DNA of 64,000 nucleotides from Catenovulum sediminis (GTDB lineage: Bacteria > Pseudomonadota > Gammaproteobacteria > Enterobacterales > Alteromonadaceae). Shown here in pieces: positions 3,667-12,196 of the stretch (positions within the stretch are counted from its first letter, which is position 1; each line of letters opens with the position of its first letter). The stretch covers positions 3,410,001 to 3,474,000 of the forward strand of contig NZ_CP041660.1 of NCBI RefSeq assembly GCF_007289895.1, in the 5' to 3' direction. Under the pieces are notes generated by a model, which made no database searches, was not told the DNA's origin, and saw only the letters and a list, made by a program, of their open reading frames with translations. The position numbers and the translations under genes were made by a program.

Positions 3667-4602
3667 TTAATCGTCCAGTGTGATTGGAGATACGAAACCA
3701 TGCGGTTTTATAGCTAAAACATCGCAATTTACACCATCTAGTAAGTGCTCTGCTGTATTGCCTAGTAGTGCTGCAGATAAACCCGTGCGGCCTACTGTAC
3801 CCATTATAATCAATTCTGCATCTATTTCTTTAGCAACGTCACTTATCGAGTCTTCTGGCAAACCTTCTGCAATTATGCAGTTATCTTCTTCGATATTGTA
3901 TTGTTTGGCATATTCCAATACCGAACGCATGTGGTGGGCTCTGATAGCCTGACGATAACTGGTTGGATCAAATTCCGGAATTTCTACAGCCAGGTTAATG
4001 GGCGTGCCTGGATAACAGTTTAGTAATTTAGGGGTCGCGTTTAACAAATCGCTGATAAATAAACTGGTTTCTATGATGTTTTTATTCAAGTCAATATGAT
4101 GTTTCTCTTCGTTTGCTGCATTAATCGCTGCAAGAATTTTGCCTTGTGGTGGCCAATCATGTTCTTTTACTAATAACAAGGGGCAAGGGCACTTTCTAAT
4201 AAGGTGCCAATCTGTAGGGGTAAATATGACTGAGCGTAGAGTGTGATGTTCGTGCGTCGCTTTGACTACTAAATCATAGTTGTGTTTTAGAGTGTGCTGG
4301 ATAATGCTTTCAAACGGACGGTTATGCCACACAACTACAGGTCTAATTTGCACGACATGCTCGGCATAGGGTAATAACATCTCTTCTAGCCACTGCGTGC
4401 GCTCTTCAATCATACAGCGTCGCATTAACTCTCTCTCATCTTGTGAGAGCATCGTTGTCATTTCATAAGAAAAGTCATATACGACTAAAAATGCTGTGAT
4501 AGCGGCATCGGTTTTTTGAGAGAGTTCGATTGCGCGTTTCAGAGATTTTTGTTGATCAACGGTCGGGTCAATTACCGCTAATATACGATTTAATTTTTTC
4601 AT
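3667..4602 (-). CDS. uspE: Tandem universal stress protein UspE
   Basis: This is a 311-residue cytoplasmic protein made of two Usp domains in tandem, the usual UspE size. The second domain carries the nucleotide-binding-type signature GTVGRTGLSAALLGNTAE near residues 266-283. The first domain begins with ILAVIDPT and is degenerate in that motif, as is common in UspE. In Alteromonadales and Shewanella uspE usually follows fnr, and UspE belongs to the group of proteins associated with stress, motility and low-oxygen growth. Here it follows an fnr remnant, with about 80 bases between them. The ATG at 4602 fits the family N-terminus MKKLNRILAVIDPT. Confidence 0.93.
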   Translation of the reverse strand: MKKLNRILAVIDPTVDQQKSLKRAIELSQKTDAAITAFLVVYDFSYEMTTMLSQDERELMRRCMIEERTQWLEEMLLPYAEHVVQIRPVVVWHNRPFESIIQHTLKHNYDLVVKATHEHHTLRSVIFTPTDWHLIRKCPCPLLLVKEHDWPPQGKILAAINAANEEKHHIDLNKNIIETSLFISDLLNATPKLLNCYPGTPINLAVEIPEFDPTSYRQAIRAHHMRSVLEYAKQYNIEEDNCIIAEGLPEDSISDVAKEIDAELIIMGTVGRTGLSAALLGNTAEHLLDGVNCDVLAIKPHGFVSPITLDD

Positions 4603-4682: not shown

Positions 4683-4946
4683 CTAGGTGAGCAAGTTAGC
4701 GATATCAGTGAGTTTTTCTAAGTTTATGATTTTTATATATTTACCATTAATCTCTAACAGGTTAGCTTTTTTAAACCGATTCAGTAAACGACTAATTGTT
4801 TCAACTGTGAGCCCAAGATGATTACCAATTTCGCCTCGCGTCATACTTAATTTGAATTCAAATGCTGATAATCCTCGGGAGCGGAAACGATTAGATAAGT
4901 GGGTAATATCGTTATTTAATTTAGCAAACGCAAAATTTGTTGCGTT
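4683..4946 (-). pseudogene. fnr: 5'-deleted fnr remnant (C-terminal HTH only)
   Basis: The 87 codons before a TAG at 4683-4685 encode the C-terminal DNA-binding part of an FNR regulator. Recognisable pieces are LSNRFRSRG, the turn-helix segment [14 protein letters not shown] followed by [15 protein letters not shown], and the closing strand GKYIKI. This matches the end of E. coli FNR closely. The N-terminal iron-sulfur cysteines, the cyclic-nucleotide-binding-like beta roll and most of the dimerisation helix are absent. The remnant begins directly after the stop codon of the SafE-type gene, in the same frame, where a full fnr would be expected. No usable start lies before the ATG inside the helix-turn-helix. 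A deletion of roughly 500 bases of coding sequence is the simplest explanation; an assembly error is possible. Confidence 0.88.
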
Positions 4947-5603
4947 TTATAGGTTCGCAAACATTTGCATTATAGTCGTAAAAATTGAATATAGGCCAAA
5001 ACCTATCAAGGTAAAACCAAAAAAGCTGCGGACGTATTTATTTTGGGTGATTTCGGCTAGTTGCTGACTTAACATACCAGACAATAGCATTGCCGGACAG
5101 GTTCCTAGACCAAATGCCAGCATGATGCTTGCCGAGTGGATCGGAGATGCTTGCGTTGCAGCCCAAGTTAAAACGCTGTAGACCAGACCACAAGGTAACC
5201 AGCCCCAGAGTGTACCGGCGATAAATCGATTAAATTTACCCGGCTGAAAGATTTGTTTATTTGCTGCTGGTGCAATAATACGCCAAGCGCCGCTGAATAG
5301 TTGCTCAATTTTTGCCAGCCCCATGTACCATTGACTGATATACAAGCCTAAAAATATTAATAAAAATCCGGACAATAAACGTAATAAATTTAAGATAGGT
5401 TTAAAACTGTCTGTCAGCCAGTAGCCGAGTAATCCTATCATTAAGCCTAGTAAAGTATAGCTACTGATACGACCGATATTATAAAGTAGGGTATCTGCCA
5501 GGCTTTTTTGCATACCACTGGCCAGTGCTAAACCACCACACATGCCTATACAGTGGCCAGCACCCATTAAGCCTATAACAAAAGCTGAAAATAAATCTGT
5601 CAT
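4947..5603 (-). CDS. SafE/TauE-type membrane protein of the cbb3 cluster
   Basis: This is a 218-residue polytopic inner-membrane protein with about six hydrophobic helices. The N-terminal motif GAGHCIGMCGG is typical of the COG2836 group found next to ccoS in cbb3 oxidase clusters and thought to help copper handling or cytochrome assembly. A second conserved segment, WGWLPCGLVYS, lies in the middle. Its ATG overlaps the ccoS stop (ATGA), so it is translationally coupled to the maturation genes. The transported substrate is not shown by the sequence; the sulfite exporter label sometimes used for this family is weakly founded. Its stop codon is followed in frame by the fnr remnant, so a few C-terminal residues may have been lost in the same deletion. 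Confidence 0.88.
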   Translation of the reverse strand: MTDLFSAFVIGLMGAGHCIGMCGGLALASGMQKSLADTLLYNIGRISSYTLLGLMIGLLGYWLTDSFKPILNLLRLLSGFLLIFLGLYISQWYMGLAKIEQLFSGAWRIIAPAANKQIFQPGKFNRFIAGTLWGWLPCGLVYSVLTWAATQASPIHSASIMLAFGLGTCPAMLLSGMLSQQLAEITQNKYVRSFFGFTLIGFGLYSIFTTIMQMFANL

Positions 5604-5758
5604 TTTTTGGCGTCAGGTTTATCATCGTCAAATAAAATGCTATAGCCTTGCTTGTTTAAATCTTCAAACTGATTACGTTTTACCGCCCAAAAAAATAGAA
5701 CAATAGCCGCAATTAAAATGATGATAGCTAATGGAATTAGTACGTAGATTACATTCAT
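5600..5758 (-). CDS. ccoS: cbb3 oxidase maturation protein CcoS
   Basis: This is a 52-residue single-pass membrane protein. The N-terminal helix (IPLAIIILIAAIVLFFWAV) is followed by the CcoS hallmark of a basic-aromatic stretch (KRNQFEDL) and an acidic tail containing LFDDD. CcoS is needed for correct cofactor insertion into cbb3 cytochrome oxidase. Start and stop are both shared with neighbours: the ATG at 5758 overlaps the ccoI stop, and its TGA overlaps the start of the SafE-type gene, the tight packing expected for translational coupling. Confidence 0.93.
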   Translation of the reverse strand: MNVIYVLIPLAIIILIAAIVLFFWAVKRNQFEDLNKQGYSILFDDDKPDAKK

Positions 5759-8133
5759 TCTTTAAGAAGTCTCATTGAGTTTGTGACAACAATCAGTGAA
5801 CTTACAGACATGCCGATAACGGCCATCCAGGGTGTTAATATACCAAAAACAGCCAGTGGAAGCGCTAATAAATTATAAACGATTGACCAGCTAAAATTTT
5901 GATTTACGATTCTATTAAGTTTTTTTGAGGTCGCAATCAGAAGCGGAATTTTACTGAGATCAGAGCCCAATAATACGACATCGGTATTTTGTTTATTAAG
6001 CTCAGCTGCTTCATTCATTGCAACACTGATATCTGCCTGTGCCAAAACAAGCGCATCATTGATACCGTCTCCAACCATCATGATGCCGCCTTGCGAGTCT
6101 TTGAGATCCTTGAGTATCGATAATTTTTGCTTGGCAGTTAGGCTTGCATAATAACCTGTGTTTAATTGCATTGCAGTGTTTTTGACTTTAGTGTGCACAT
6201 CACCACTTAAGATATAAACGGGTGCATCTAGTGCAGTTAAGCTTTCTTTAACACGGTTTCGAATGTTATCTGTAACATTAATATGTGCGATTAATTGGCC
6301 ATCTATCAGGACATATATCTGCGTATCGTCTAAGTTTTTTAAATGTTCGCTTGCTGCCTTGTTAACGAGTCTAACGCTGCCGACTTGCCAAGTTTGCTTC
6401 GCAATTGTTGCTTGAATACCTACGCCTGCAAGCAATTGATAGTTTTCAATAGGGATATCAGCTTTAAAATCGGTAAAAGCACTGGCTATTGGATGCCCAC
6501 TTGGCTTTTCTAAAGCTGCAACATGGTTCAATAGTTCTTGTTGTGTCAAATTGCAGCTGGGGTAGAGGATAACCGATTCAATGCTGAACTTTCCATCAGT
6601 TAGGGTACCTGTTTTGTCAAATGCAAATCGATTGATCTTGCAAGCGTTTTCGAGTGCTGAGGTGTTACGTATTAAGATCCCTTGTTTTTTTAAGCGGGCA
6701 GATGCGGCTGACAATGCAGTGGGGAGTGCCAGCGATAATGCGCAAGGACAAGTCGCTACTAATACAGCGACAGCATACCATAAGGCATTTTCGCCTAACC
6801 ATGTCCAAACTATATAGGTCAGTAAAGATAATAAGATGACACCAATAGTTGCTTGGCGTGCTACTTTGTCGGCTAAATTTGCCAGTTTACTTTTTGACGT
6901 ACTGATGGTTTCTTGATGTTTGGCTATTTTGGCAAGTGTCGTGGCTGAACCGCAAGCACTGACTTTTATGTAGATACTTTGATCTATTGAGGTGCTTCCT
7001 GCATAAACTCGATCTCCTTTATTTTTGACTATCGGTAAGCTTTCGCCATTTAATAAAGCTTCTTCAACTTGGCAGGTTTTTGACAGTAAATAGCCATCAG
7101 CAGGGATGCTTTGTCCCGCCTTTACCAATATGCAGTCGCCTTTGTGTAAAGTGTCGGCATGTACCACGGTTGTTTTTGTTGAGTTTTCACCTTTCACTTT
7201 ATGCGCGACCATAGGTAACAGTTTAAGCATATTGGCAGATATGACTGTGGCTTTTGTTTTGGCCAGATGCTCTAAATATCGACTGGTTAGCAGTAATAAA
7301 ACAAACATACTGGCAGATTCAAAATACACTTCGCCTGCTTGTGTAAAGGTGGCGTATGCACTGGCAAAATAGGTGCCTAAAATCGCAAAGACGACCGGTA
7401 CATCCATATTTAAACTTCTATTTTTTAACGCGCGATAAGCTGAATGAATTAAAGGTAACCCGCTATAAAAAATAACAGGTGTAGAAAGTATTAAACTAAT
7501 CCAGCGAAAAAACTCGGCGAACCCTTGCTCAACAATGCCAAAATAGAGTGCAAATGCAAACATCATAACCTGCATGGTAAATAGACCGGCGACCGCAAGT
7601 TGTTTTTGAAAAGATTTGTTGATTTGATGATACTTGTTTTCCAGTTCGGATATTTTAAACGGACTGGGGAGATATCCGATTGTTCTTATTTGGTAAAATA
7701 ACTCGCTTACCTTTATCTGATCTTTAAGCCATCTAATATGAGCACGATTTTGTGTTAGATTGACGTTAATAGATATGATGTCGGGAAATTGTTGTTTCAA
7801 GTGTTTTTCTATGAGCCAAGCGCAGGCGGCACAATGTAAACCGTCGATAGCAATATCTGCGACTTCTTCGTTGCTCTCTTGCCAGACAAATTCTTTTTTA
7901 ATGCTGTCCGTATCATAAACTTTATCTTGTTGGATATCATCGTTAGATATTTCTGGTTTGTCTGCTGAGCTATCACGATAGCGATAATATTCACTCATTC
8001 CACCGCCAAGAATGGCGTTTGCAACAGCCTGACAACCAGCACAACAAACAGCTTGAGGTTGTTGGTTTACCTCAACTGTCAGTGCAACGTTATGCGGAAT
8101 CGGCTGGCTACAGTGAAAACAATTTTGAGCCAT
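5755..8133 (-). CDS. ccoI: Copper-transporting P1B-type ATPase CcoI
   Basis: This is a 792-residue P-type ATPase that exports copper for assembly of the cbb3 oxidase CuB centre. The N-terminus has a Cys-rich metal-binding region (CFHC, then CCAGC), as in CcoI/FixI, followed by a heavy-metal-associated domain with GLHCAACAW. Membrane helices lead to the transport-site CPC motif (VATCPCALSLALP), the phosphorylation site DKTGTLT and the hinge GDGINDA. The extra N-terminal cysteine cluster and the position between ccoH and ccoS separate it from general CopA-type pumps. Its TGA overlaps the ccoS start, and ccoH ends five bases upstream. Confidence 0.96.
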   Translation of the reverse strand: MAQNCFHCSQPIPHNVALTVEVNQQPQAVCCAGCQAVANAILGGGMSEYYRYRDSSADKPEISNDDIQQDKVYDTDSIKKEFVWQESNEEVADIAIDGLHCAACAWLIEKHLKQQFPDIISINVNLTQNRAHIRWLKDQIKVSELFYQIRTIGYLPSPFKISELENKYHQINKSFQKQLAVAGLFTMQVMMFAFALYFGIVEQGFAEFFRWISLILSTPVIFYSGLPLIHSAYRALKNRSLNMDVPVVFAILGTYFASAYATFTQAGEVYFESASMFVLLLLTSRYLEHLAKTKATVISANMLKLLPMVAHKVKGENSTKTTVVHADTLHKGDCILVKAGQSIPADGYLLSKTCQVEEALLNGESLPIVKNKGDRVYAGSTSIDQSIYIKVSACGSATTLAKIAKHQETISTSKSKLANLADKVARQATIGVILLSLLTYIVWTWLGENALWYAVAVLVATCPCALSLALPTALSAASARLKKQGILIRNTSALENACKINRFAFDKTGTLTDGKFSIESVILYPSCNLTQQELLNHVAALEKPSGHPIASAFTDFKADIPIENYQLLAGVGIQATIAKQTWQVGSVRLVNKAASEHLKNLDDTQIYVLIDGQLIAHINVTDNIRNRVKESLTALDAPVYILSGDVHTKVKNTAMQLNTGYYASLTAKQKLSILKDLKDSQGGIMMVGDGINDALVLAQADISVAMNEAAELNKQNTDVVLLGSDLSKIPLLIATSKKLNRIVNQNFSWSIVYNLLALPLAVFGILTPWMAVIGMSVSSLIVVTNSMRLLKE

Positions 8134-8137
8134 ATAT

Positions 8138-8635
8138 TTAATGCGGCGTGATTAAAATTTTGCCTTGATGCGGCAATTGCACGACTTTTTGGACTTTCCA
8201 AGATTTATCATGAGGTTCAATCGTTAATTGCCACTTGCCCTCTGTCGCTTTTAATAAATCAGCACTAAAAATGCCATCAGCGCGTGCTGTTGCCATAACC
8301 TGTTGGTCTTTATGTGATTGAGTTGAATGATAAAAAGAGACTATTAAACTGGCGATTTGCGGTGCTTTTTGATTTCTATTTACATCGAGTAATATTTGCT
8401 GGTCTGAAACTTCGGCAAAGATAGCAATGCCATAGTCTCTTGCAAGTGTTTCACGATCAAACTCTTGATTAATTGCTTTACCTTTTTTGTAATAGTCATC
8501 GACAACCATTTCTACTTGATATTCGCTGTAGATACTCATGCGCACCGCTGCAACCAACATAGGCAGCACGATGATTGCGATTAAAACCCAAGGCCAGGGT
8601 TCTTTATACCAAGGGCGAACATCTGTTTGATTCAT
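8138..8635 (-). CDS. ccoH: cbb3 oxidase assembly protein CcoH (FixH)
   Basis: This is a 165-residue protein with one N-terminal transmembrane helix (VLIAIIVLPMLVAAVRMSI) preceded by the short Trp/Pro-rich cytoplasmic end PWYKEPWPW, as in FixH/CcoH. The rest is periplasmic, with the family motif VVDDYYKKGKAINQ just after the membrane segment. FixH helps assembly of the cbb3 oxidase, probably near CcoN or CcoI. It is the first gene of the maturation group and is separated from ccoP by a terminator-like hairpin, so ccoHIS may be expressed at a different level from ccoNOQP. Confidence 0.93.
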   Translation of the reverse strand: MNQTDVRPWYKEPWPWVLIAIIVLPMLVAAVRMSIYSEYQVEMVVDDYYKKGKAINQEFDRETLARDYGIAIFAEVSDQQILLDVNRNQKAPQIASLIVSFYHSTQSHKDQQVMATARADGIFSADLLKATEGKWQLTIEPHDKSWKVQKVVQLPHQGKILITPH

Positions 8636-8706
8636 TTAAAACCACTTAAAAAACTTAACAAAAGGGGAGGGTGTTGGGCTGTATTTTACTGAAGTTATAA
8701 AAATTA

Positions 8707-8732
8707 AAAAGCCCTGAATCAGCAGGGCTTTT
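8707..8732 (-). terminator. Intrinsic terminator after ccoP
   Basis: AAAAGCCCTG pairs with CAGGGCTTTT across a six-base loop, and in the minus direction the stem is followed by TTTT and an AT-rich stretch. It lies directly after the ccoP stop and before ccoH. It probably ends or attenuates the structural-gene transcript before the maturation genes. Confidence 0.8.
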
Positions 8733-8741
8733 AGATGTTAC

Positions 8742-9707
8742 TTATTTATTATTAGACAGGCTGTATATGTAAGCTGTTACTAGATGAATTTTGTCTTCAC
8801 CCAGAATATCTTTCCATGCTGGCATAACACCATTACGACCGTGTCTTAGTGTTTCACTAATTGCGCGTTCAGAGCCGCCATATAACCAGATATCATCCGT
8901 TAAGTTCGGTGCACCCATAGGCAACCCATGCGCTATACTACCTTTACCATCTGCACCATGACAGGCCGCGCAGACACCAAATTTAGCTTCACCGGCTTTT
9001 GCTAAGGTCGCATCGACTTCACGTCCGCTTAAGCTGATGACGTAAGCGGTTAATTGTTTTATGCCTTGCTCACCCATTGAAGAGGACCAACCGGGCATAA
9101 CCGCATTTCTGCCGTGCATCAGAGTTTCTTTAATTTTTTCGGGTGAACCACCATATAACCAATCATTATCGGTTAAATTCGGGAAGCCAGTTCCGCCGCG
9201 AGCGTCGGACGCATGGCACTGAGAACAGTTCTGCAAATATAACCGTTTACCGATCTCTAATGCATCTTCGTCTTTGGCTAACGTTTTCACATCTTGAGAC
9301 GCATACTGCTCAAATATAGGTCCAAAAACTGCTTCAGCATCACGAAGTTCCGTATCGTACTGTACGCGATAACCTTCTTCTAATGCTTTAGCGCTTTTTT
9401 CTTTACCTTCAGCAATTGTTTGAATGCCTTGAATGGAACTTTTCCAGCCTAAAAAGCCTTCGTAGTTGCCCAGCCCTGGATATGCCAACAAGTAGTAAGC
9501 AGCCCATACAGCGGTCGCCCAAAACATTTTTGTCCACCAAGCTGGTAAAGGGTTATTTAATTCTTCAATGCCGTCGAACTCATGTCCCATGGACTTGCCT
9601 TCTTCAACACCCGCGTAATTTTTCATGTTCCAGTAGAGTAATGAAAATACCAGAACTAATGTCAAAATGGATAAAATTGCTACCCATAAGCTCCAAAAGG
9701 TACTCAT
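8742..9707 (-). CDS. ccoP: cbb3 cytochrome oxidase diheme subunit CcoP
   Basis: This is the 321-residue membrane-anchored diheme cytochrome c subunit of cbb3 oxidase. It has N-terminal transmembrane segments (the second contains FWATAVWAAYYLLAYPGLG), then two c-type heme sites, CSQCH and CAACH. Each is followed by a methionine-ligand motif (MPGW, MPAW). The conserved segment between the membrane helices includes DGIEELNNPLPAWW, the CcoP hallmark. CcoP passes electrons from the bc1 complex or soluble cytochromes to CcoO and CcoN. It is the last gene of ccoNOQP, ten bases after ccoQ. Confidence 0.97.
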   Translation of the reverse strand: MSTFWSLWVAILSILTLVLVFSLLYWNMKNYAGVEEGKSMGHEFDGIEELNNPLPAWWTKMFWATAVWAAYYLLAYPGLGNYEGFLGWKSSIQGIQTIAEGKEKSAKALEEGYRVQYDTELRDAEAVFGPIFEQYASQDVKTLAKDEDALEIGKRLYLQNCSQCHASDARGGTGFPNLTDNDWLYGGSPEKIKETLMHGRNAVMPGWSSSMGEQGIKQLTAYVISLSGREVDATLAKAGEAKFGVCAACHGADGKGSIAHGLPMGAPNLTDDIWLYGGSERAISETLRHGRNGVMPAWKDILGEDKIHLVTAYIYSLSNNK

Positions 9708-9717
9708 GTTGTATCCT

Positions 9718-9900
9718 CTAATCTTTGTGAGCTTGCTGCTCTTTTTTACGGCTGTCTTTCAGGTCTTTGTCGTCCAGAATAGAGTTTGCCGCATCATCAA
9801 ATCGTTTTTTACTGTGCTTACTGTAGGCCCACCAGATGATAGCCGCAAAAACGACCATCATAATTATGGTATATATGCCTCGATAAGTGCCGTAATCCAT
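9718..9900 (-). CDS. ccoQ: cbb3 oxidase small subunit CcoQ
   Basis: This is a 60-residue protein with a single transmembrane helix (GIYTIIMMVVFAAIIWWAY) and a short charged cytoplasmic tail, the usual CcoQ size and shape. CcoQ stabilises the cbb3 complex, especially the interaction of CcoP with the CcoNO core. The gene lies one base after ccoO and just before ccoP. Confidence 0.93.
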   Translation of the reverse strand: MDYGTYRGIYTIIMMVVFAAIIWWAYSKHSKKRFDDAANSILDDKDLKDSRKKEQQAHKD

Positions 9901-9901
9901 A

Positions 9902-10510
9902 TTATTTCAATGCCGTGCCAAGTGACTGTAGATAAGCAATAAGCGCTTCCATCTCGGTTTTACCCGCGACACTGGCTTTAGCATTTGCTATATCTTCATC
10001 AGTATAAGGAACGCCATAGTATTCTTTAAAAATGCTTAGTTTTTTCGCGGTTAATTCACCATCTAAAACATTTTCTTCCAACCATGGGAAGCCTGGCATA
10101 TTTGACTCTGGAACAACGAGCCTTGGATTAATTAAATGTACACGATGCCATTCATCTGAATAACGACCACCTACACGCGCTAAATCAGGACCTGTACGTT
10201 TGGAGCCCCATAGGAAAGGGTGCTCCCAAACAGACTCACCTGCTACTGAGTAATGGCCATATCTTTCGGTTTCTGAACGGAAAGGGCGGATCATTTGACT
10301 GTGACAGCCTACACATCCTTCACGGATGTAGATATCACGTCCTTCCATTTGTAGAGCGGTATAAGGTTTTAAACCTTTAACTGGCTCTGTTGTGTCTTTC
10401 ATAAACATCAGTGGTGTGATTTCCACTAAGGTACCAAAACTAATAGCAATGATGGCAAAAATTGCCAACAGGCCTATATTCTTTTCTACGATTTCATGTT
10501 TATTCGCCAT
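9902..10510 (-). CDS. ccoO: cbb3 oxidase monoheme subunit CcoO
   Basis: This is a 202-residue cytochrome c subunit with one N-terminal membrane anchor ([18 protein letters not shown]), the heme motif [10 protein letters not shown] and a downstream methionine-ligand region ([11 protein letters not shown]). These are the standard CcoO features. The conserved segments [10 protein letters not shown] and [18 protein letters not shown] are present. It relays electrons from CcoP to the catalytic subunit. It starts nine bases after the ccoN stop. Confidence 0.97.
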
Positions 10511-10519
10511 GATATCCTC

Positions 10520-11962
10520 CTACGCAGTCGCTTGAGCAGCGGGAGATGAAATGCTTTCATCCGCTGTTTTGTCAGAGCGAATTGTTCTGATTACGTTATA
10601 CAACATCAGAATCATACCTGTGACTACACACAAGCCACCAACCCAACGAATAATGTTAAATGGTTTTTTCTGTGCAACAATTTCAATAAAACTGTAGGTT
10701 AATGTGCCGTCAGCGTTAATTGCGCGCCACATCATGCCTTCCATCACCCCGGTGATCCACATTGCGACGATATATAACACCACGCCAGCAGTTGCTAACC
10801 AGAAATGCACGTTGATTAATTTAATGCTGTACATACGTTCGCGACCAAATACACGTGGAATTAGATGATATAGAGAACCGATAGAAATCATTGCAACCCA
10901 GCCCAATGCACCTGAGTGTACATGACCCACGGTCCAGTCAGTGTAGTGAGACAGTGCATTTACCGATTTAATTGCCATCATAGGGCCTTCAAATGTAGAC
11001 ATGCCGTAGAAAGATAATGAAACAATCATAAAGCGCAGAATGGGATCTGTTCTAAGTTTATGCCATGCGCCGGATAAAGTCATGATACCGTTTATCATAC
11101 CGCCCCAAGAAGGAACAAATAGTACAATTGACATCACCATACCTAATGATTGCGTCCAATCAGGTAGGGCAGTGTAGTGCAAATGGTGAGGGCCGGCCCA
11201 GATATATAATGAAATGAGTGACCAAAAGTGAACCACAGATAAACGATATGAATACACAGGGCGTTCTGCTTGTTTAGGTACAAAATAGTACATCATACCT
11301 AAGAAGCCTGCCGTTAAGAAAAAGCCTACCGCATTGTGACCGTACCACCATTGCATCATGGCATCAACTGCACCTGCGTAAATGGAATAGGATTTAGTAA
11401 AGCTGACCGGTATTGCCATGCTGTTACCAATATGCAGCACCGCTACGGTTAAGATAAACCCACCGTAGAACCAGTTAGCGACATAAATATGAGAAGTTGT
11501 TCTTTTTACAATTGTACCGAAAAATACGATTGCATAAGCAATCCATACAATTGCGATCAAAATGTCAATTGGCCACTCTAGCTCAGCATATTCTTTTGAA
11601 CTTGTCATCCCTAAAGGTAATGAAATAATTGCACAGACAATGACTGCCTGCCATCCCCAAAAGGTAAAGTTTGCAATTTTGTCGCTAAAGATGCGCGTTT
11701 GACAGGTCCTCTGAACAACATAATAAGAGGTTGCAAACAATGCACAGCCGCCAAAAGCAAATATTACTGCGTTGGTATGCAGTGGTCTAAGGCGTGAATA
11801 GGTAAACCAAGGTGTGTCGAAATTTAATTCCGGCCACACTAACTGAGCTGCAATCAGAACACCAGCAGACATTCCGATCAGCCCCCAGATTACAGCCATT
11901 ACGGCAAATTTTTTGACTATGTCAAAATTGTAGATAGGCGTTGCAGAACTTGTTGCGCTCAT
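10520..11962 (-). CDS. ccoN: cbb3 oxidase catalytic subunit CcoN
   Basis: This is a 480-residue heme-copper oxidase subunit I of the cbb3 (C) type with about twelve transmembrane helices. Heme and CuB ligands are visible: an early His in [25 protein letters not shown], the His-His pair in [13 protein letters not shown], and [15 protein letters not shown]. This subunit reduces oxygen with very high affinity and pumps protons. Being first in ccoNOQP, it should carry the operon promoter. An FNR-like box lies about 220 bases upstream, and a GGAAG ribosome binding site precedes the ATG. The gene has its expected length with no sign of decay. Confidence 0.98.
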
Positions 11963-12182: not shown

Positions 12183-12196
12183 ATGATTTGAGTCAA
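12183..12196 (-). promoter_or_regulatory. FNR/Anr-like box upstream of ccoN
   Basis: Read on the minus strand the site is TTGACTCAAATCAT, which matches eight of ten defined positions of the FNR consensus TTGAT-N4-ATCAA. About 30 bases downstream a TGTATTTTTAAT stretch could serve as an extended -10, the spacing expected of a class II FNR promoter. It would drive ccoNOQP. It is notable because the fnr gene normally found in this cluster is truncated here, so a different Crp/Fnr protein would have to use the site. Confidence 0.5.

Follow-up and report, generated by a model that had tools for sequence, protein, structure and literature searches.

FNR is the textbook oxygen switch, and in the bacteria considered here its gene normally shares one conserved cluster with the oxidase that it is thought to control. 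What happens when such a cluster is deprived of its regulator has been described for the etrA (fnr) deletion mutant of Shewanella oneidensis, EtrA7-1. Excerpts of that study report that under anaerobic conditions ccoP, ccoN and ccoQ were up 2.3-, 2.8- and 3.4-fold, respectively; its Table 2 gives a predicted EtrA site at ccoN, although a sentence of its text credits only the nqr clusters of that group with such a site (PMC3078092). The same excerpts state that the mutant grew much more slowly on nitrate, so that the loss of Fnr is not harmless in S. oneidensis. In the available parts of two further papers, cco of Shewanella is described as directly controlled by cAMP-Crp (PMC4830989), and ArcA and Crp are described as critical in aerobic and indispensable in anaerobic respiration, respectively (PMC3011009). 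The Shewanella cco data thus imply that loss of FNR need not silence the cbb3 genes.

Here we describe a locus of Catenovulum sediminis in a window of 64,000 nucleotides, the whole stretch of DNA that was analysed. Its likeness to EtrA7-1 is that Fnr appears to be removed and the cbb3 genes are kept; in the mutant, as far as the excerpts of PMC3078092 go, these are also transcribed, whereas here the likeness concerns the genes only. Moreover, EtrA7-1 is a laboratory mutant of a versatile anaerobe whose anaerobic growth on nitrate is clearly slowed, whereas the window would present a natural loss.

The fnr slot of the window

The frame found between the SafE-type gene and uspE (Table 1), which we call the tail, matched positions 168-244 of the 250 in the NCBIfam FNR model NF008365 with 101.4 bits (E 4.9e-29), a score far above chance that falls below the curated cut-off of 228 bits, and it matched the Pfam models HTH_Crp_2 (54.8 bits) and Crp (46 bits) above their cut-offs. 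It shares with FNR/EtrA (NF008365, PRK11161) the slot, the C-terminal helix-turn-helix and the recognition helix ETISR of E. coli FNR (VETISR in the tail, the same as in E. coli); homology to FNR is not clear for its first ~13 codons. Unlike FNR/EtrA, the tail has no cysteine in its 87 codons, so that the N-terminal [4Fe-4S] cysteines are absent (CxxC was seen in 6/6 full-length FNR rows of the alignment with the tail), no match to the cNMP-type sensor domain (PF00027) and no dimerisation helix, the alignment to full FNR beginning where that helix ends. It also differs in having no start at its head: neither ATG, GTG nor TTG occurs before codon 35, which is the first ATG and lies inside the helix-turn-helix. 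The TAA of the SafE-type gene directly precedes the tail, which runs on in the same frame with that one TAA between and is free of internal stops. The preliminary description had recognised in these 87 codons an FNR helix-turn-helix end, devoid of iron-sulfur cysteines, sensor domain and start codon and placed directly after the SafE-type stop, and in all of this it was borne out.

Table 1. Features around the fnr slot and the cbb3 cluster, in positions of the window
Feature	Position	Strand	Remark
uspE	3667..4602	-	intact; above family cut-off
fnr remnant	4683..4946	-	C-terminal FNR helix-turn-helix only, 87-codon open frame
8-bp perfect inverted repeat, 6-nt loop	4926..4947	-	overlaps last base of SafE-type stop
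SafE-type (DsbD_2) membrane protein	4947..5603	-	intact; end about as in homologues
ccoI-type metal P-type ATPase	5755..8133	-	general models above cut-off; ccoI name from position
ccoH-type gene	8138..8635	-	name from position; no family model above cut-off
ccoP	8742..9707	-	intact; above family cut-off
ccoQ-like short frame	9718..9900	-	by position and length
ccoO	9902..10510	-	intact; above family cut-off
ccoN	10520..11962	-	intact; above family cut-off
FNR-type box TTGACTCAAATCAT (predicted)	12183..12196	-	234 nt upstream of ccoN start

The host genome (4,868,003 bases in 2 contigs, estimated completeness 100%) was compared with seven congeners, with one genome per species and thus across species only. 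In each of the seven, the SafE-type gene and uspE flank a full fnr, and none has a short version of it; in a search of the genus with NF008365, 7/8 genomes were above the FNR cut-off, the exception being that of the window. From the SafE-type stop to the MTR codons, the window is ~495 nt shorter than congener G001 by arithmetic on the coordinates, and the cysteine, sensor and dimerisation parts are gone. These results agree with the earlier statements that fnr normally sits between the two genes and that about 500 bases were deleted. The claim that the cbb3 genes are intact also held, with CcoN, CcoO and CcoP above their cut-offs and CcoQ and the CcoH-type protein assigned by position only. 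CcoN shares 88-93% identity with its counterparts in the seven congeners, and UspE is 74% identical to that of Gayadomonas joobiniege and 68-73% to those of the named Catenovulum species. Two minor features of spacing were seen: in congener G007 (locus L068), ~1.2 kb separates fnr from uspE, and in the window no ccoG (rdxA) was found between ccoP and the ccoH-type gene (8636-8741), where the gap looks similarly small in congeners.

The perfect inverted repeat of Table 1 sits at the junction of the deletion, on its 5' side. No U-run follows it, and its folding gave a z-score of -2.17, with 8/200 shuffles folding equally well; it is possibly a trace of the deletion.

Genome-wide searches with HTH_Crp_2, Crp, cNMP_binding and the FNR model found no second FNR, and the only other full Crp/Fnr protein they returned was CRP (336.8 bits against a cut-off of 266). 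Six further HTH_Crp_2 matches belong to proteins whose best Pfam matches are of GntR, Rrf2, FadR_C, FCD, Fic and AsnC types; the Fic-type protein scored 22.8 bits in one search and 19.2 in another against the 21-bit Crp cut-off. ArcA is full-length in 8/8 genus genomes, and that of the window's genome is 71% identical to E. coli ArcA. Apart from CRP, the cNMP domain occurs in the genome only in a 183-aa protein without helix-turn-helix (L010, 1375-1926; no DNA-binding domain match). In three congeners, short frames that the FNR model matched weakly over the same part may be relatives of this protein.

Recurrent loss of fnr in the family

Loss of fnr beside an intact ccoN is recurrent in the family, which is what is new here, and is not peculiar to the window's genome. 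Among 295 family genomes, 255 were above the FNR cut-off and 40 below. From these 40 we looked at the window's genome, G016 and 14 others, namely G183 and 13 whose best match, if any, was weaker than 1e-20; the remaining 24 have best FNR matches of ~1e-47 to 1e-61. A ccoN above cut-off is present in 12/14 (G063 has none and G103 fragments only), and the slot downstream of ccoN was read in these 12 and in G016, 13 genomes altogether.

Two of them, G195 and G071, from two genera, carry remnants of fnr in the slot flanked by the SafE-type gene and uspE, consisting of N-terminal cysteine-region pieces and a tail from ~codon 164-166 in different frames, and congeners of theirs (G032, G099, G130, G158, G177 and G110) have FNR above cut-off. 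Both share with the window the slot, a ccoN above cut-off, the deletion of the sensor part and the tail left from about that codon, but they keep the N-terminal cysteine piece (in G195 by eye) and are frameshifted, whereas the remnant in the window lacks such a piece and is in frame. At the G195 junction, the alignment with congeners suggested an imperfect repeat, by eye only.

In seven other genomes (G011, G119, G220, G255, G257, G262 and G302), the SafE-type gene is followed by uspE within ~60-210 nt and the slot holds no fnr match; in the stretch read of G227 no fnr match was found, nor was uspE. These eight clean-loss genomes represent five genera, and none of them has, in the whole genome, a hit to the FNR model stronger than 5e-9. 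The slot of G016 is likewise without fnr, but a divergent FNR-like sequence matched elsewhere in that genome (5.8e-40), and the stretches of G183 and G146 are cut by contig ends. The total is three remnants in three genera, the window counted, and eight clean losses, all beside a full ccoN. The loss in the window is therefore one of several in the family, and the window an ordinary but instructive case of regulator loss. Such repeated breakage or absence of fnr beside intact ccoN amounts to a series of natural deletion experiments, with full fnr, fresh remnant and clean loss.

Among the matches listed in the open-licence literature, subscription journals being outside its scope, titles and abstract openings contained no report of the fnr loss described here. 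As a marker of anaerobic life, anaerobic ribonucleotide reductase was uninformative, since 105/295 genomes matched and only 3 were above cut-off; the window's genome had no match.

The FNR-type box upstream of ccoN

The predicted FNR-type box lies in a block of ~85 nt upstream of ccoN that is common to 8/8 genus genomes, and its half-sites are identical in the window and in G001, G002, G005 and G007. We scored 40 ccoN promoters, out of 10 and within 400 nt, with the pattern WTGAYN4RTCAW, which is degenerate and was picked post hoc after the genus promoters had been seen. FNR-bearing family genomes reached 10/10 in 12/15 cases and 9 or 10 in 15/15, whereas 0/8 clean-loss genomes reached 9/10 (Fisher p=0.0003 for 10/10, FNR-bearing against clean loss, genomes of one genus not being independent). 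The three FNR-bearing genomes with a score of 9 share it with 23-35% of their shuffles. As for the remnants, the window scored 10 (reached by 0.7% of shuffles), G071 10 (3%) and G195 9 (29%, near chance).

The Fisher test took in G001 and left out G007, both of which scored 10/10. Also left out were G015 (FNR-bearing, 212 nt upstream only, score 8), G146 (122 nt only, 8), G016 (no fnr in the slot, 9), G183 (slot cut by a contig end, 9), the three remnants and nine genomes of other families (G036, G038, G040, G041 and G043-G047). Six of these nine scored 10; G044, G045 and G046 scored only 8 and have a full-length Crp/Fnr-type frame within ~8 kb of ccoN, so that a genome probably bearing fnr can lack the box. 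When the upstream region was widened to 900 nt, 3/8 clean-loss genomes (G011, G257 and G262) reached 9 and none 10. Against the strict consensus, the seven scored genus promoters (the window included, G007 outside) reached 8-9/10, and the clean-loss genome G011, with 8, was hardly worse.

Judging from the box only, ccoN in the genus would depend on FNR. The box is seemingly kept with the remnant and missing in the clean losses read, and an order is suggested, though not proven, in which the gene breaks first and the ccoN box outlives it and then fades; 'regulator first, binding site later' thus becomes directly testable.

Counts over larger stretches were dropped. The exact box TTGATN4ATCAA occurs at 29 sites in the window's genome and at 21-59 in the 7 congeners, against 4-18 for the read-backwards control in the 8 genomes; these counts say little because most sites lie inside frames (27/29 here, 19/24 in G003 and 34/36 fetched of 59 in G007). 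Matches with up to 2 mismatches across the window (106 against a shuffle mean of 64) pooled promoters and genes and were set aside. In two congeners (L065 and L067), FNR-type box sequences were seen by eye just upstream of fnr, in the gap that follows the SafE-type gene, which suggests that fnr controls itself there.

Signs of decay in the tail and possible control of the cbb3 genes

Scanning 54 loci gave 52 FNR rows, in which five genomes stand twice (as named contig and under a G handle) and L053 is represented by a fragment of 98 aa. At the 29 tail columns conserved in at least 95% of these rows, the tail deviates four times (A11N, F13D, Y43H and V66I), against a mean of 0.15 and a maximum of 2 in the rows themselves; columns 11 and 13 are close to the junction and possibly lack homology. 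A codon model (own script; 70 tail codons, 8 species), in which synonymous sites were saturated, gave an omega on the window branch that was not raised (0.060 vs 0.049, p=0.79), and under the same saturation omega=1 over the whole branch was rejected (p=0.004). The model still leaves room for a neutral final part of the branch with up to ~0.35 substitutions per codon, so that a recent loss fits. We read this as a loss of fnr late on the window branch; a retained function of the tail is likewise compatible with the result, and a point against the pseudogene reading is that the frame, in contrast to the two other remnants, contains no stop.

The account that we favour, and hold to be very probably right, is that the frame is a pseudogene remnant of fnr, that FNR oxygen control has been lost and that cbb3 has been kept under other inputs. 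Comparison with full fnr shows that a deletion of ~495 nt took out the region of the fnr start, the cysteines for the iron-sulfur cluster, the sensor domain and the greater part of the dimerisation helix, and brought the final ~70 codons of FNR up against the end of the SafE-type gene. Because there is no start at its head and no dimerisation helix, and because invariant FNR residues are substituted, the tail probably makes no functional protein. FNR oxygen control would be lost in this genome, since it holds no other FNR, and cbb3 would still be expressed from the conserved promoter, most likely with ArcA and/or CRP or basal activity as inputs. The loss looks recent because the tail frame is uninterrupted and the ccoN box is kept.

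Polymerases and assemblies can slip at places such as inverted repeats, and the junction stands at one of 8 bp in a species represented by one genome; a full fnr might therefore really be present and ~500 nt have been lost in assembly or sequencing. We consider such an error very unlikely for a genome in 2 contigs with 100% estimated completeness, the more so as lesions of the same kind occur in two other genera. The tail, besides, has its own changes at invariant FNR positions (Y43H and V66I) and, at the junction, ~39 nt whose homology to FNR is not clear, and a collapsed assembly should instead have left the ancestral codons. That the tail works as a protein reduced to the helix-turn-helix, made by coupling or read-through from the SafE-type gene and binding FNR boxes without oxygen sensing, is a highly improbable reading, even with 87 open codons in the SafE-type frame behind a single TAA, recognition-helix residues that match E. 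coli FNR, a ccoN box that is kept and no excess of amino-acid change over the branch. Against it stand the head without start codon, the lost dimerisation helix, the changed invariant columns, the frameshifts in both other remnants with tail sequence and the short version in 0/7 congeners. Since G071 is frameshifted yet has a 10/10 box, tail and box can persist without the protein. Still less credible is that a new regulator arose, and none was destroyed, when the sensor was deleted: a sensor-less tail translated by coupling to the SafE-type gene and binding, blind to oxygen, at the retained FNR boxes.

The preliminary description went too far in concluding that a rewiring of oxygen control, or its takeover by another Crp/Fnr protein, must have occurred: CRP is the only other full one, no rewiring is visible because the ccoN promoter block with its FNR-type half-sites is conserved, and 'must' is too strong in view of the Shewanella cco data. 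What is seen requires no more than the loss of a single layer of control. A true rewiring, in which CRP or ArcA newly acts at the ccoN promoter in place of FNR, is compatible with the pseudogene account and, in our view, unlikely. Both proteins are full-length, and cco of Shewanella is said to be under cAMP-Crp in the available part of PMC4830989. However, no CRP-like match better than 8/10, a score that 14% of shuffles reached, occurs within 400 nt upstream of ccoN, no new site is visible in a block conserved with the FNR-bearing sisters, and an input from CRP or ArcA may be ancestral, not new.

The two loci that gave no FNR row (L054, Alteromonas lipotrueiana, and L059, Candidatus Photodesmus blepharus) had neither an FNR-type frame nor a tblastn match around uspE. 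A frameshift near codon 163 divides the fnr of Candidatus Pantoea haifensis (L053, 4131-4879), not far from the point at which the tails of the three remnants start; an A-rich codon run noticed there by eye is possibly a hot spot for mutation, and the frameshift may also be a sequencing error.
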